DNA of 64,000 nt from NCBI GenBank assembly GCA_017475265.1, contig JAFVFY010000030.1:1-64000 (forward strand). Reading direction: 5' to 3'. Positions 2,057 to 64,000 of the stretch are shown here, in pieces (positions within the stretch are counted from its first letter, which is position 1; every line of letters begins with the position of its first letter). The DNA comes from Prevotella sp. Its GTDB lineage: Bacteria > Bacteroidota > Bacteroidia > Bacteroidales > Bacteroidaceae. Both the position numbers and the translations under genes were made by a program. The notes beneath the pieces were generated by a model that saw nothing but the letters and a program-made list of their open reading frames with translations, was not told the origin of the DNA and made no database searches.

Positions 2057-4000
2057 TTAGCTTCTTGTCGTAATAAGGTTGGTAATGGCCTTGCTGGCTT
2101 TCTCCGTGGCTGAAAGTTCGCGGTAGAGGCGGAGACGGAAACGAATCATGCGGATGTAGAAGAAGATGCCGAGGGGGAGGATAAGACCCGTGAGGGCGTT
2201 GAGCCAGCGACGACGGAAAGGACGTGTGTGGGCGTGCGTGGCTAGAACGGGGATGTTGTTCAGCTCGTGGAGCACACGGTGGTCGCGGGTGTTCGAAAGA
2301 TCCTCGATGACGAAAGAGAGGTTCTCGTTGATTTCCTCTATGCGTCGGTCGTCGCCGGGACGGAAAAAGACGTTGATGGGGTTGGGCCAGCGCAGCAGAT
2401 GGTGCTCCTGGCGGTAGGCCTCGATGTCGGCGACGATGGTCTGCAGTTTCTCTGCGTCAGCAGGATAGTCGGGCTGGTTGATGACCACCTCCTTATAGGC
2501 CAGGTTGCGTTTCTGCTTCAGACCGAGCAACTTGATGAAGAAGAGGCGGTAAGCATCGATATTGAAGACGGTGGAGTCGTTGTTGGCCTTGTAGGTGAAG
2601 AAAACGGCCAAGGGCGTGAGCACCATCATGGAGATGGTCTTGCCGTACCACACAGTCCAGTTATCATCGCGAGCCATACGCATGCCCGAGTTGTCGAAGA
2701 TATAGTAGACGATAAAGACGATGACGCTGATGATGACGGGCACGCCAAGTCCTCCCTTGCGGATGATGGCACCGAGGGGTGCTCCGATGAAGAAGAAGAC
2801 AATACAGGAGAGCGCCAGCGTGAACTTTCCCAGAACTTCTATCTGGTGGAGTCGTTCCTGGCGGTTTAGATAGTCGGCATAGTTGGCCTTCAAGGCGCAG
2901 TCATTGGCAGCTGTCTGTGCCTGTCGGGCAGCCTCGCGGGCTACAATGCGGCGGGTGTCGTTGTTGAGGGAGGCGTAGAGGCTGTCAGGGTTGGGTAATT
3001 TGACTATTTGACTATTTACTATTTGACTATTTTGAGAGTTGAGAGTTGAGAGTTGAGAGTTGAGACGTAGGGAGTCCTCGGGGGTGAGGGGCTCCATGAA
3101 GAGAACGTAGTAGCGGGCCTCGCGGTAGTAGCTCTGTCCTACACTGTCGTTGAAGTGGCGGATGGAGTCGAGGTCGTGAATAATTTGCATGCTGCTCTTC
3201 GACTTGGCGCTGCTGGCGATGCCCGCCACGTCGGCAAGGTTAAATCCATCGTCGAAGTCGAGGAGTATCTGTTTCTGTCCGAAGGTCTCACGGCGGTAGG
3301 GTACCTCAGCGGTACCACCGATGTCCTGCGACCGCATATTCTCGAACCACTCGCCGCTCCAGAGGGTCATGAGGAGGTGTTTCTTCTCGGCGGTGGACTG
3401 TAGCATGCCTGAGTCGGCAAGGATGATGGCCTGGTCCTCATAGCTGCCGCTCTGGCGGTAAATCATCACGTTGTAGAGCTTGCCCGTCTTGAGGTCTTTA
3501 CGCTGGACGTAGAGGTTGGTGTTGGGCAGTCCGTCGTAGAAGCGTCCTTCGGGAATCTCCAGTTCAGGACTCTTCTGCTTCATGGAAAGGAGCAACTGAC
3601 CGAACTTCTTGTTGGCCTCAGGACCAATGACATCCTGGAAGTACATCGACAGCCCTGCGGTGAGGATGACCAACACGATGAGCGAGCGCATGGCTCCGAG
3701 CAGTGAGACTCCAGCTGCCTTGATGGCGGTAAGTTCTGAGCTTTCACCAAGGTTTCCGAAGGTGATGAGCGAGGAGAGGAGGATAGCCAACGGTATGGCC
3801 TGGGGCACAAGCATGAGGCTCATGTACCAGAGGAACTGGGCCATGACATCGAGCGTCAGGCCCTTGCCGATGAGGTCGTCGACATAGCGCCAGAGGAACT
3901 GCATCATCAGCACGAACTGACAGATGAAGAACGTGGCGGCGAAAAGCAGAAGAAACTGCTTGGCGATGAACTTATCGAGCTTCCTTATGCGAAACAGCAT
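2057..4000 (-). CDS. LptF/LptG (YjgP/YjgQ) family LPS export permease
   Basis: Inner-membrane permease of the Lpt ABC transporter that extracts lipopolysaccharide from the inner membrane and passes it to the periplasmic bridge. At 647 aa it has the Bacteroidota form. There are three N-terminal membrane segments (about 14-36, 55-80 and 98-125), a large periplasmic domain, three further segments (about 390-470) and a long cytosolic tail. The N-terminal stretch with 'FGNLGESSELTAIKAAGVS' is the family's coupling-loop region. Between domains, at about residues 313-335, sits a low-complexity insert (LNSQLSTLNSQNSQIVN) encoded by GAGAGTT and TTTGACTA-type repeats at 2998-3064; the same peptide occurs in the MFS protein near 36 kb. 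It is followed upstream by mscS on the same strand with 97 bp of AT-rich repeat between. Whether it is LptF or LptG cannot be decided here. Confidence 0.88.
   Translation of the reverse strand: MLFRIRKLDKFIAKQFLLLFAATFFICQFVLMMQFLWRYVDDLIGKGLTLDVMAQFLWYMSLMLVPQAIPLAILLSSLITFGNLGESSELTAIKAAGVSLLGAMRSLIVLVILTAGLSMYFQDVIGPEANKKFGQLLLSMKQKSPELEIPEGRFYDGLPNTNLYVQRKDLKTGKLYNVMIYRQSGSYEDQAIILADSGMLQSTAEKKHLLMTLWSGEWFENMRSQDIGGTAEVPYRRETFGQKQILLDFDDGFNLADVAGIASSAKSKSSMQIIHDLDSIRHFNDSVGQSYYREARYYVLFMEPLTPEDSLRLNSQLSTLNSQNSQIVNSQIVKLPNPDSLYASLNNDTRRIVAREAARQAQTAANDCALKANYADYLNRQERLHQIEVLGKFTLALSCIVFFFIGAPLGAIIRKGGLGVPVIISVIVFIVYYIFDNSGMRMARDDNWTVWYGKTISMMVLTPLAVFFTYKANNDSTVFNIDAYRLFFIKLLGLKQKRNLAYKEVVINQPDYPADAEKLQTIVADIEAYRQEHHLLRWPNPINVFFRPGDDRRIEEINENLSFVIEDLSNTRDHRVLHELNNIPVLATHAHTRPFRRRWLNALTGLILPLGIFFYIRMIRFRLRLYRELSATEKASKAITNLITTRS
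2998..3064. repeat. In-frame GAGAGTT / TTTGACTA low-complexity repeat inside the Lpt permease gene
   Basis: Tandem copies of a 7-base unit GAGAGTT follow tandem copies of an ATTTGACT/ATTTACT unit. The stretch has no stop in the gene's frame and encodes an Asn-Ser-Gln-Leu-rich linker. The same two units occur between genes at 4004-4080 and 4956-4996, and the GAGAGTT unit recurs inside the MFS gene at 36042-36147. Confidence 0.85.
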
Positions 4001-62102: not shown

Positions 62103-64000
62103 TTAGAAGAGGCTCTGCTCGCCGTCATCGATGTGGGTGACGCGGTCGTTCAGCTCGGCCAGCTTGCCACTGTTCCAGCGGTCGGTGGTACCAACAAGGT
62201 AGCCGGTGATGCGCTGTAGCCGGTCGATGTCGTGGCTGTGGCAGCGGGGGCACTCCTTGAGGTCGGGCTGAGCGTTCTCGTAGCCACAGGCCATGCAGCG
62301 GTTGCGGTTGTGGTTGATGCTTCCGTAACCCATGTTCAGGCGATCCATCATGTCGACAACACCCATGATGACCTGGGGGTTGTGCGTGGCATCGCCATCT
62401 ACCTCAACGTAGAAGATGTGACCGCCACGCGTCAGATCATGGTAGGGAGCCTCCACCTCGGCCTTGTGGCGTGCGGAGCACTTGTAGTAGACCGGCACGT
62501 GGTTGGAGTTCGTGTAGTAGTCGCGGTCGCAGATGCCCTTCAGTGGGCCGAATTTTTCGCGGTCGCGCTTGGTGAAACGTCCGGCCAGACCTTCGGCGGG
62601 CGTGGCGAGCACGGAGTAGTTGTGGTGGTAACGCTCGCAGAACTCGTTGATGCGGTCGCGCATGTAGGTGACGATGCGCAGTCCCAGCTCCTGTGCCTCC
62701 TCACTCTCGCCGTGATGCTTACCGATGAGGGCCACGAGGCACTCGGCCAAGCCGATGAAGCCAATGCCGAGCGTGCCCTGATTGATGACGCTGTCCACCT
62801 TGTCGTTGGGAGCCAGCTTGTCGCCGCCTATCCAGAGGCTCTTCATCAGCAGGGGGAACTGCTTGGCCAGGGCTGACTTCTGGAACTGGAAACGGTCATC
62901 GAGCTGCTTGGCGGCAATCTCGAGCATACGGTCGAGCTTGGCGAAGAACAGGGCGATGCGCTGCTCTTTCACTTCCTTACTCAGTGGGTAATTGTCACGC
63001 TGGGATGCGTGACCTACTATACTGCTGTCACGCTGGGAAGCGTGACCTACTTCCAACATGCACTCGATGGCGAGCTTCACAATATTAATAGTGGTGAACG
63101 AGACGTTTCCGCGCCCAATGGAGGTCTTGGGTCCGAAGCGGTTCTCGAAGACACGGGTGCGGCAGCCCATCGTGGCCACCTCGTGGAGGTAGCGCTTGGG
63201 GTCGTCGGGACGCCACTCGTCGGTTTGGTTAAAGGTGGCATCAAGATTAAGGAAATTGGGGAAGAACCGGCGGGCCGTCACCTTACAGGCCAACTGGTAA
63301 AGGTCGAAGTTACGGTCTTCGGGCAGGTAGTTCACGCCGCGCTTCTTTTTCCATATCTGTATGGGGAAGATGGCAGTCTCGCCGCCGCCCACGCCCTCGT
63401 AAGTGGAGAGCAGGATTTCGCGCATCACGCAGCGTCCTTCGGCCGAAGTGTCTGTACCATAATTAATAGAGGAGAACACCACCTGGTTGCCGCCTCGTGA
63501 GTGGATGGTGTTCATGTTGTGGATGAAAGCCTCCATGGCCTGGTGCACACGGCCCACGGTCTTGTTGATGGCATGCTGGCGCACGCGGTCGACGCCCATC
63601 AGACAGTCGAGGGGCTGCTTTATATAGTCCATCAGCGGCTCGTCGTAGAGCTTTGAGTAGTCCTCGCCGTTCAGGTCTTCAAGATATTTCAGCTCCTCCT
63701 GATAGGTCATGCGCACGAAGGGTGCGAGGTAGAAGTCGAAGGCCGGGATGGCCTGTCCACCGTGCATCTCGTTCTGGGCGCACTCCAGGCTGATGCAGGC
63801 CAGCACGCTTGCCGTCTCAATACGTTTGGCAGGGCGCGAGGCACCATGTCCGGCGATGAAGCCGCAGTTCAGGATATTGTCCAGCGGGTGCTGCACGCAG
63901 GTGAAGCTCTTCGTGGGGTAGTAGTCTTTGTCGTGGATGTGCAGGTAGTTGTCCTTCACCGCGTCTTTCACATCCGGCGAGAGCAGATAGTCATCGACGA
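62103..64000 (-). CDS. nrdD: Anaerobic ribonucleoside-triphosphate reductase, large subunit (partial)
   Basis: Glycyl-radical enzyme that makes deoxyribonucleotides without oxygen. The frame is open to the right edge, so the N-terminus is outside the window; about 632 codons are present. Visible features: the catalytic core ('HIHDKDYYPTKSFTCVQHPL', 'CAQNEMHGGQAIPAFDF'), a Cys4 zinc site (MACGY and CPRCHS) and the glycyl-radical loop RITGYLVGTTDRWNSGK near the end. In the middle, VGHASQRDSSIVGHASQRDN is a two-copy, in-frame insertion of a palindromic repeat (62994-63050), absent from the family as I know it. The activase gene nrdG usually follows nrdD, but here the xylanase gene follows after 168 bp, so nrdG must be elsewhere. 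Confidence 0.95.
   Translation of the reverse strand, partial: VDDYLLSPDVKDAVKDNYLHIHDKDYYPTKSFTCVQHPLDNILNCGFIAGHGASRPAKRIETASVLACISLECAQNEMHGGQAIPAFDFYLAPFVRMTYQEELKYLEDLNGEDYSKLYDEPLMDYIKQPLDCLMGVDRVRQHAINKTVGRVHQAMEAFIHNMNTIHSRGGNQVVFSSINYGTDTSAEGRCVMREILLSTYEGVGGGETAIFPIQIWKKKRGVNYLPEDRNFDLYQLACKVTARRFFPNFLNLDATFNQTDEWRPDDPKRYLHEVATMGCRTRVFENRFGPKTSIGRGNVSFTTINIVKLAIECMLEVGHASQRDSSIVGHASQRDNYPLSKEVKEQRIALFFAKLDRMLEIAAKQLDDRFQFQKSALAKQFPLLMKSLWIGGDKLAPNDKVDSVINQGTLGIGFIGLAECLVALIGKHHGESEEAQELGLRIVTYMRDRINEFCERYHHNYSVLATPAEGLAGRFTKRDREKFGPLKGICDRDYYTNSNHVPVYYKCSARHKAEVEAPYHDLTRGGHIFYVEVDGDATHNPQVIMGVVDMMDRLNMGYGSINHNRNRCMACGYENAQPDLKECPRCHSHDIDRLQRITGYLVGTTDRWNSGKLAELNDRVTHIDDGEQSLF
62994..63050. 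repeat. Tandem palindromic repeat inside nrdD
   Basis: Two copies of GTCACGC-TGGGA(T/A)-GCGTGAC-CTAC (62994-63017 and 63027-63050) at a 33-bp period, so exactly 11 codons. Each copy is a 7-bp-arm hairpin. It encodes two copies of VGHASQRD. Confidence 0.9.

Follow-up and report, generated by a model that had tools for sequence, protein, structure and literature searches.

How short repeats come to lie inside unrelated protein-coding genes without interrupting them is the question raised by a 64,000-nt stretch of a Prevotella-like genome (positions 1-64000 of contig C40, here called the window; the genome, G000, comprises 4.75 Mb in 135 contigs). A sequence-only reading had pointed to palindromic repeats set in frame within at least eight genes of the window, and the eight places it listed were all translated within their own open reading frames, none of which was broken. 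The observation was thus confirmed in part, with its interpretation also supported in part, and the repeats occur well beyond chance and are more extensive than the window alone shows. Two of the families, F5 and F1, probably represent a population of repetitive extragenic palindromes (REPs) with a GTAG foot, mobile now or formerly, of which F5 persists in G000 mostly as translated inserts.

Two families of GTAG-footed hairpins

Whole-genome searches with F5 (GTAGGTCACGCTTCCCAGCGTGAC and variants) gave 47 matches at up to two mismatches and 125 under a looser exact pattern, and those with F1 (GTAGGGGCAG...CAGCCC) gave 37, two of which overlapped; the controls, reversed patterns in the case of F1, gave none. 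The dispersed repeats reported from the window therefore have many other copies in the genome. F5 folds into an 8-bp stem with an unpaired GTAG foot (z -5.6) and F1 into a stem with one mismatch, also with an unpaired GTAG foot (z -1.9); GTAG and GTGG forms of the foot are both present among repeats of the GTAG type. High copy number and dispersal, by which GTAG REPs and REPINs (REP doublets forming hairpins) are recognized, were found for both F5 (125) and F1 (37), and F5 additionally showed the inverted doublets characteristic of these elements. F1 and F5 are accordingly GTAG-footed hairpins of the REP type. An exact F1 25-mer was found in 107 stretches of the genome collection, all from Prevotella or Prevotellaceae and many from ruminants. 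A phage origin was considered and rejected, as viral contigs contained no exact match to either one F1 25-mer or one F5 24-mer (exact sequences only).

In the window, two F5 copies, the first at 63027-63050 and the second at 62994-63017 (both on the minus strand and both read as VGHASQRD), lie in the gene for the anaerobic ribonucleotide reductase NrdD, which occupies 62103-63998 of the minus strand up to the window end (Pfam NRDD, 610 bits; 768 aa as called on the contig). F1 hairpins lie in the N-terminal tail of GlnRS (21603-21627, minus strand, read as VGAGPVPAR), where translation could also begin after the insert, at the GTG codons of residues 18 and 22, and in a fimbrillin-like lipoprotein (49181-49205, minus strand, read as VGADPVSAL). 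An inverted F1 pair resembling a REPIN is intergenic (32620-32734).

Location, reading frame and stem of F5 within genes

Copies were located against gene calls from a purpose-built codon model rather than a standard annotation, in a sample of 732,801 bases of G000 in 98 blocks, many of which were chosen for F5 and blind to gene position. This sample held 114 F5 copies, leaving 11 of the whole-genome count of 125 outside it. A total of 100 were wholly within called genes, 12 were intergenic and 2 were partial, so that the extragenic location expected of GTAG REPs and REPINs was not found for F5 in this genome. The 100 intragenic copies were spread over 51 called genes, with at most eight per gene, and occupied every tenth of the called gene except the last. 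Independently of the gene caller, open frames 250 or more codons long held 102 of the 114 copies, including 4 of the 12 classed as intergenic. In a second sample, drawn independently of F5 and made up of 19 stretches of 20 kb from contigs on which F1 had been matched, 5/5 F5 copies were in called genes, or 7/7 with the window's own pair.

Among the 41 F5-bearing proteins scanned, of the 51 that exist, 37 matched a Pfam family at an E-value of 1e-6 or better. The hosts include a GltB-type glutamate synthase, which also carries two F2 hairpins, carbamoyl phosphate synthase (CarAB), PurA and NrdD, along with two phosphoglycerate mutase-type proteins, EtfA, an SNF2-type protein, a serpin and several glycoside hydrolases. 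On contig C103, F5 was found within 15 kb in CobJ/CbiC, CbiG/CbiF, CbiD/CbiJ, CobQ, CobB and a periplasmic binding protein. This cobalamin locus (L220, C103:70001-90000) holds, besides its six F5-bearing genes, F7 hairpins and one in-gene TTCCCACNGTGGGAA array; the other three TTCCCACNGTGGGAA arrays in the sample are all intergenic.

The frames in which the intragenic copies are read were markedly uneven. Relative to the strand and phase of the gene, 59 of the 100 were read on the same strand in phase 0, 17 on the opposite strand in phase 0, 10 on the opposite strand in phase 2, 8 on the same strand in phase 1 and 6 on the opposite strand in phase 1. None was read on the same strand in phase 2, which gives a stop for the GTAG copies. 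If the stop-free frames of each copy were equivalent, 21.9 copies would be expected in the same-strand phase 0 frame. The same frame was taken by F1 in 10 of its 11 copies in called genes of G000 and in 18 of 23 at other Prevotella loci. Within genes, the three pattern-free base pairs of the F5 stem were Watson-Crick in 93, 94 and 96 of 100 copies, against shuffle means of 58.9, 43.0 and 54.5, and the stems thus stay paired within genes through compensatory changes. Neighbouring F5 copies at most 100 nt apart were in the orientation +- in 21 cases, ++ in 10 and -- in 12, and never -+.

Related genomes as a control

The F5 pattern was present in 10 of 200 genomes of the genus, including G000 itself, with 140 matches in G141, 134 in G000, 82 in G085, 18 in G072 and at most five in each of the others. 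The reversed F5 control matched once each in 4 of the 200 genomes; the lone matches of G063, G097 and G116 are therefore no more than the control yields, and seven genomes remain with at least two. In the two relatives richest in F5, the copies read were entirely outside called genes (G085, 0/23, with 82 matched; G141, 0/28, with 140 matched), such that all 51 were intergenic and the extragenic location of REPs, absent in G000, was found there. The difference in intragenic location between G000 and these two genomes combined was large (Fisher p 4e-31, with the two partial copies dropped). The count by length of open frame (250 codons or longer) gave a similar picture, with 1/23 copies in G085 and 0/28 in G141. 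Called genes held 0/2 copies in G034 and 8/18 in G072, with 11/18 of the latter in open frames of that length. Most copies in G085 and G141 have GTAGGAG before the stem, and in G049 a GGGG-foot form was in a called gene in 1 of 7 copies read. One intragenic F5 pair is common to G000 (C21:1911-1973) and G072 (C48:20456-20518), with near-identical surrounding residues, and at least one insertion therefore probably predates the split of these lineages.

Orthologues and structures without the inserts

Orthologues were compared for NrdD, the major facilitator superfamily (MFS) protein and PurA, and solved structures for NrdD, GlnRS and the glycoside hydrolase family 3 (GH3) protein. In PurA the relevant segment has 85 residues in G000, 76 in 28 orthologues and 75 in one, and the insert of 9 aa (net +27 nt) was absent in all 29 orthologues examined from a search of 100 genomes. 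Two of the three MFS inserts, units B and C, were likewise absent in 11/11 orthologues. NrdD relatives mostly lack the insert. In most of those matching strongly, the alignment breaks near query residues 314-317 and resumes near 341-344, and between the residues ECM and RI there are 32 residues in G000 and, among the ten relatives shown, 7 in eight and 13 in one (L225), the tenth being incomplete. The alignment runs through the insert region in G031 and G033, and G031 has a heptamer-like stretch at the site of the F5 pair of G000.

Among solved structures, a net 25 NrdD residues are absent from PDB entry 8p23; the ten best of 44 PDB relatives of GlnRS align from residues 20-23 onward; and two PDB alignments shown for GH3 have a 12-residue gap at the insert.

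Probable transposase genes beside the hairpins

Genes of the Y1_Tnp family were found three times in G000 and are present in 111 of the 200 genomes. Two of them in relatives, on G141:C44 (L343) and G085:C117 (L344), encode proteins that are 98.6% identical over 215 residues and have F5 on both sides, with 8 and 5 copies, respectively, in the stretches read. A further Y1_Tnp gene, on G141:C4 (L342), is flanked by F1-type GTAGGGGCGGA hairpins, and the G072:C75 (L346) protein, 44% identical to that of L342, is encoded next to an inverted F1 pair. From this arrangement and from their protein motifs, the hairpin-flanked genes of the relatives are likely to encode REP-associated tyrosine transposases (RAYTs). 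A cognate, hairpin-flanked RAYT in the same genome, as expected for REPINs, was thus found for F5 in G141 and G085, and none was seen in G000. At the edge of G000 contig C29 there is a fragment with 32% identity to the F5-flanked RAYT over 65 residues, possibly a RAYT relative cut off by the assembly.

Weighing the explanations

The reading of F5 and F1 as mobile REPs draws together the near-identical copies at unrelated sites, the absence of the inserts in orthologues, the compensated stems, the flanking of RAYT-type genes in relatives and the rules of frame and sense. Mobility by a RAYT combined with tolerance of insertions in loops would be the likeliest account of these observations. A Y1/HUH enzyme of the RAYT type, acting in trans or since lost, would have moved the hairpins as single-stranded DNA, the GTAG hairpins often being in inverted, REPIN-like pairs. 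Insertions in genes would survive where they add a number of nucleotides divisible by three (27 nt in PurA) and the reading is free of stops, most often with GTA first, such that a short polar stretch containing Gly, Ala or Ser is tolerated in a loop; other insertions would be purged. The F3 heptamer arrays and the F2 and F6 hairpins, described below, would be separate repeats passing the same filter. A more specific proposal, held tentatively and at somewhat less than even probability, is that a RAYT-type REPIN population changed its niche, from the regions between genes to the coding sequence, and was shaped for both folding (mobility) and translation. With equal reserve, such a shift may have favoured a stop-free reading beginning with GTA, a net length divisible by three and a loop-friendly peptide, with basic enzymes repeatedly gaining short segments.

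A number of results weigh against this account or narrow it. The intragenic share of F5 (100/112) did not significantly exceed the coding fraction of 0.829 (p 0.08), and as this excess is not significant alone, the case is carried by the difference from the relatives and by the frame rules; the intragenic counts also depend on the purpose-built gene calls. F1 is mainly intergenic, with 11 of 30 copies in called genes of G000 and 23 of 133 at other Prevotella loci, and the predominance within genes is therefore a property of F5 only. A whole-genome search of G000 with the F5-flanked RAYT found no close relative (best E-value 0.009), so that the case for mobilization by a RAYT comes from the related genomes, and the Y1_Tnp genes of G000 on C20 and C37 have other hairpins beside them. 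Y1_Tnp genes were present in 8 of 10 F5 carriers vs 103 of 190 non-carriers, a weak association given how common they are in the genus. Transposition itself was not observed, and neither element ends nor a target duplication could be fixed, because the closest empty site, that of G072 in PurA, diverges near the junction.

Several other explanations can be set against mobile REPs. The peptides might have come first, through convergence in loops or a shared functional motif, with the DNA similarity secondary, and the dominance of one VGHASQRD-like reading (the 59 copies in the same-strand phase 0 frame) would fit this; it is nevertheless highly improbable, given that the same F5 DNA is read in five combinations of strand and phase as unrelated peptides, 33 of the 100 copies being read on the opposite strand, that F5 is also intergenic in G000 and exclusively so among the copies read in G085 and G141, and that its stems are compensated at the DNA level. 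A role as functional RNA, in which the hairpins are kept within genes for mRNA stability, attenuation or translational pausing rather than tolerated as mobile DNA, is unlikely, though less so. The maintained pairing within genes favours it, and co-regulation could be suggested by the clustering of F5 hosts in a single 15-kb locus, where five cobalamin genes and one encoding a periplasmic binding protein have copies; however, F5 is found in nearly every part of its host genes, on either strand and in unrelated pathways, an Rfam scan of the window detected no RNA family at threshold, and pairing is explained equally well by recent copying or by the requirements of a transposase.

Removal of the inserts before or during translation, by bypassing of the hop/byp kind or in an intein-like manner, would make hairpins in essential genes harmless. 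It is very improbable, because skipped inserts need be neither in frame nor stop-free, as the intragenic copies are, and because both the stop-containing F5 phase (0/100) and the antisense of intragenic heptamer arrays (24/24 in sense) are avoided. Least probable of all is an artefact of assembly or binning: the genome is fragmented into 135 contigs, but its completeness is 99.11 and its contamination 1.83, the inserts lie within long open frames, and the intragenic pair shared with G072 has near-identical surroundings there. A mixed origin, in which only the GTAG hairpins were transposed and the heptamers, F2 and F6 spread by slippage, recombination or other means, has about an even chance of being correct. 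The heptamers do not fold, the GTAG foot is absent from F2 and F6, and F6 is nested within long F1. Nothing decisive was found against a mixed origin, which is compatible with mobile GTAG-footed REPs and would limit the RAYT mechanism to F1 and F5.

If the proposed niche shift is true, the relatives with intergenic copies of the same hairpin provide a natural control. Palindromes inserted in frame are known chiefly from Rickettsia and sporadically from other organisms, and here about 100 copies of one hairpin lie in about 51 called genes of a Prevotella-like bacterium, while the copies read in relatives are intergenic and flank a likely transposase gene. This makes it testable whether selfish repeats adapt to translation and whether repeats supply new protein segments. 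It also cautions against taking segments of this kind in Prevotella proteins for conserved motifs, since they are inserts.

Other repeat families in the window and the genome

F3 is a tandem AACTCTC heptamer with 427 overlapping whole-genome matches at up to two mismatches, for which the reversed-pattern control is uninformative, since reversing the heptamer only shifts it cyclically. Its arrays were in called genes in 24 cases, intergenic in 15 and partial in 10, and all 24 intragenic arrays were in the only stop-free sense, the antisense giving TGA. In the window, a tandem array of heptamers and octamers lies in an LptF/LptG-like permease (2998-3065, minus strand, read as LNSQLSTLNSQNSQIVNSQIV) and is non-palindromic. 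As the F3 heptamer does not fold, the description of all the inserts as palindromes was rejected; it holds for the F1, F5, F2 and F6 hairpins, and fails for the permease insert and most of MFS unit A, which are tandem arrays of 7-8 nt.

F2 comprises hairpins of the forms CCCCTCC-loop-GGAGGGG and CCTCTCC, with a G-rich tail. Nine core sites were present in the fetched G000 sequence, six of them inside called genes, and a strict tailed pattern matched only three times genome-wide. The tailed F2-type hairpin in GH3 (24765-24790, minus strand, read as SLPNPSKGGA) belongs to this family, as does in a looser sense a tailed hairpin near the C-terminus of a beta-helix protein (49924-49958, minus strand, read as SLTPDPSPNGEGS), which is a relative with the G-rich tail and an exact match to neither F2 pattern. 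F6, the hairpin GGGGATnnnnnATCCCC, had 12 copies in 733 kb of G000. Seven of these were in called genes, all in one phase and read as GDxxSP. One copy is the palindrome in a tetratricopeptide repeat (TPR) protein (9432-9448, minus strand, read as GDNKSP), which had been flagged as weaker and is now placed in a dispersed family.

F6 is also nested inside a 46-nt long form of F1. The combination is found twice in the MFS gene, as unit B in the coding sense (35918-35963, minus strand, read as GVGAGDGGDLQSPVPAR) and as unit C in antisense (35739-35784, plus strand, read as TGWHRGLQIPSITCPY), contributing two further F6 copies, one read as GDLQSP and one, in a different phase, as RGLQIP. Unit A (36040-36148, minus strand) consists of an F3 heptamer array with an embedded hairpin, F8, in a linker that is variable in orthologues; in the G059 orthologue (L341) the linker instead contains PPAPPCEGGEY..., a distinct Pro-rich stretch that may have come from another repeat family in frame. 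The codon-model caller missed the MFS gene, and its inserts were accordingly counted as intergenic. Another long F1 with nested F6 (17861-17904, minus strand) is intergenic by the same caller. Pfam supported the assignments of NrdD, GlnRS, GH3, LptF/LptG, MFS, fimbrillin-like and TPR among the host proteins of the window, and a scan of the beta-helix protein supported no family.

Further repeats were noted alongside these. F7 (GGGAGCGCGGACG..CGTCCGC) was in called genes in 7 of 8 copies read, five of them as GSADV(S/P)SA (L207, L211, L217 and L220; 25988-26010 in the window). The hairpin CCCCTAAGTTAGGGG, after which GGTTGGGGGTCTGAA often occurs, is mostly intergenic and often paired 90-180 nt apart, and serves as an intergenic contrast family (L202, L205, L208, L211, L213, L215, L217 and L219). 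The window also holds 22-nt tandem repeats of two kinds (33504-33635 and 18774-18883) and a 101-nt stretch in three copies about 900 nt apart (16817-16917, 17708-17808 and 18623-18723).

Comparison with known systems

Heptanucleotide tandem arrays at many places are known from cyanobacteria as short tandemly repeated repetitive (STRR) sequences. The F3 arrays resemble these in their tandem 7-nt units, and differ in the unit itself and in the uniform sense orientation of the intragenic arrays.

For the hairpins, the closest comparison is with GTAG REPs. The survey by Di Nocera, De Gregorio and Rocco (2013; PMC3733652) describes intragenic REPs for a number of species, with the highest numbers in O. 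terrae and R. conorii, and most REPs as intergenic; GTAG repeats are named for Proteobacteria, Cyanobacteria, Chloroflexi and the Planctomycetes-Verrucomicrobia-Chlamydiae (PVC) group, and only CGTC repeats for Bacteroidetes. F5 and F1 share with the GTAG REPs of that text the foot, the short hairpin, the dimers, the presence of some copies in genes and the link to RAYTs, and differ in that F5 is mostly in genes and the host is Prevotella-like. Repeat units in genes are also recorded for enterobacteria in PMC2759123. REPINs are presented as inverted, extragenic REP doublets in PMC3116915, and classes of TnpA-REP, some subclasses of which are found in Bacteroidetes, in PMC6006769; the inverted doublets and the hairpin-flanked RAYT-type genes of relatives agree with these descriptions, whereas F5 doublets, unlike REPINs in PMC3116915, are mostly in genes. 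Among the matches listed by a literature search that covered few subscription papers, no title or opening of an abstract dealt with in-gene REPs of Prevotella.

The sequence-only reading had likened the inserts to Rickettsia palindromic elements (RPEs), which PMC3767692 reports in reading frames, with different RPE families at orthologous sites, and which are described as 100-150 bp long. The likeness holds for how the elements work, as short, in-frame insertions of several families in unrelated genes, enzymes included, and extends to the occupation of one site by different elements in relatives, as for the F5 pair of G000 and the heptamer-like stretch of G031 in NrdD. It does not hold for sequence: as far as the foot can be compared, the GTAG of F5 and F1 is distinct from the CGTC tag reported for R. 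conorii RPEs in PMC3733652, and the elements are not RPEs by sequence; the units here are also 24-46 nt long and their host is not an intracellular Rickettsia. Intragenic REPs and the RPEs of Rickettsia are thus known precedents, and the new features are a host from this group, an F5 population lying predominantly inside genes, and related genomes in which the copies read of the same hairpin are intergenic.

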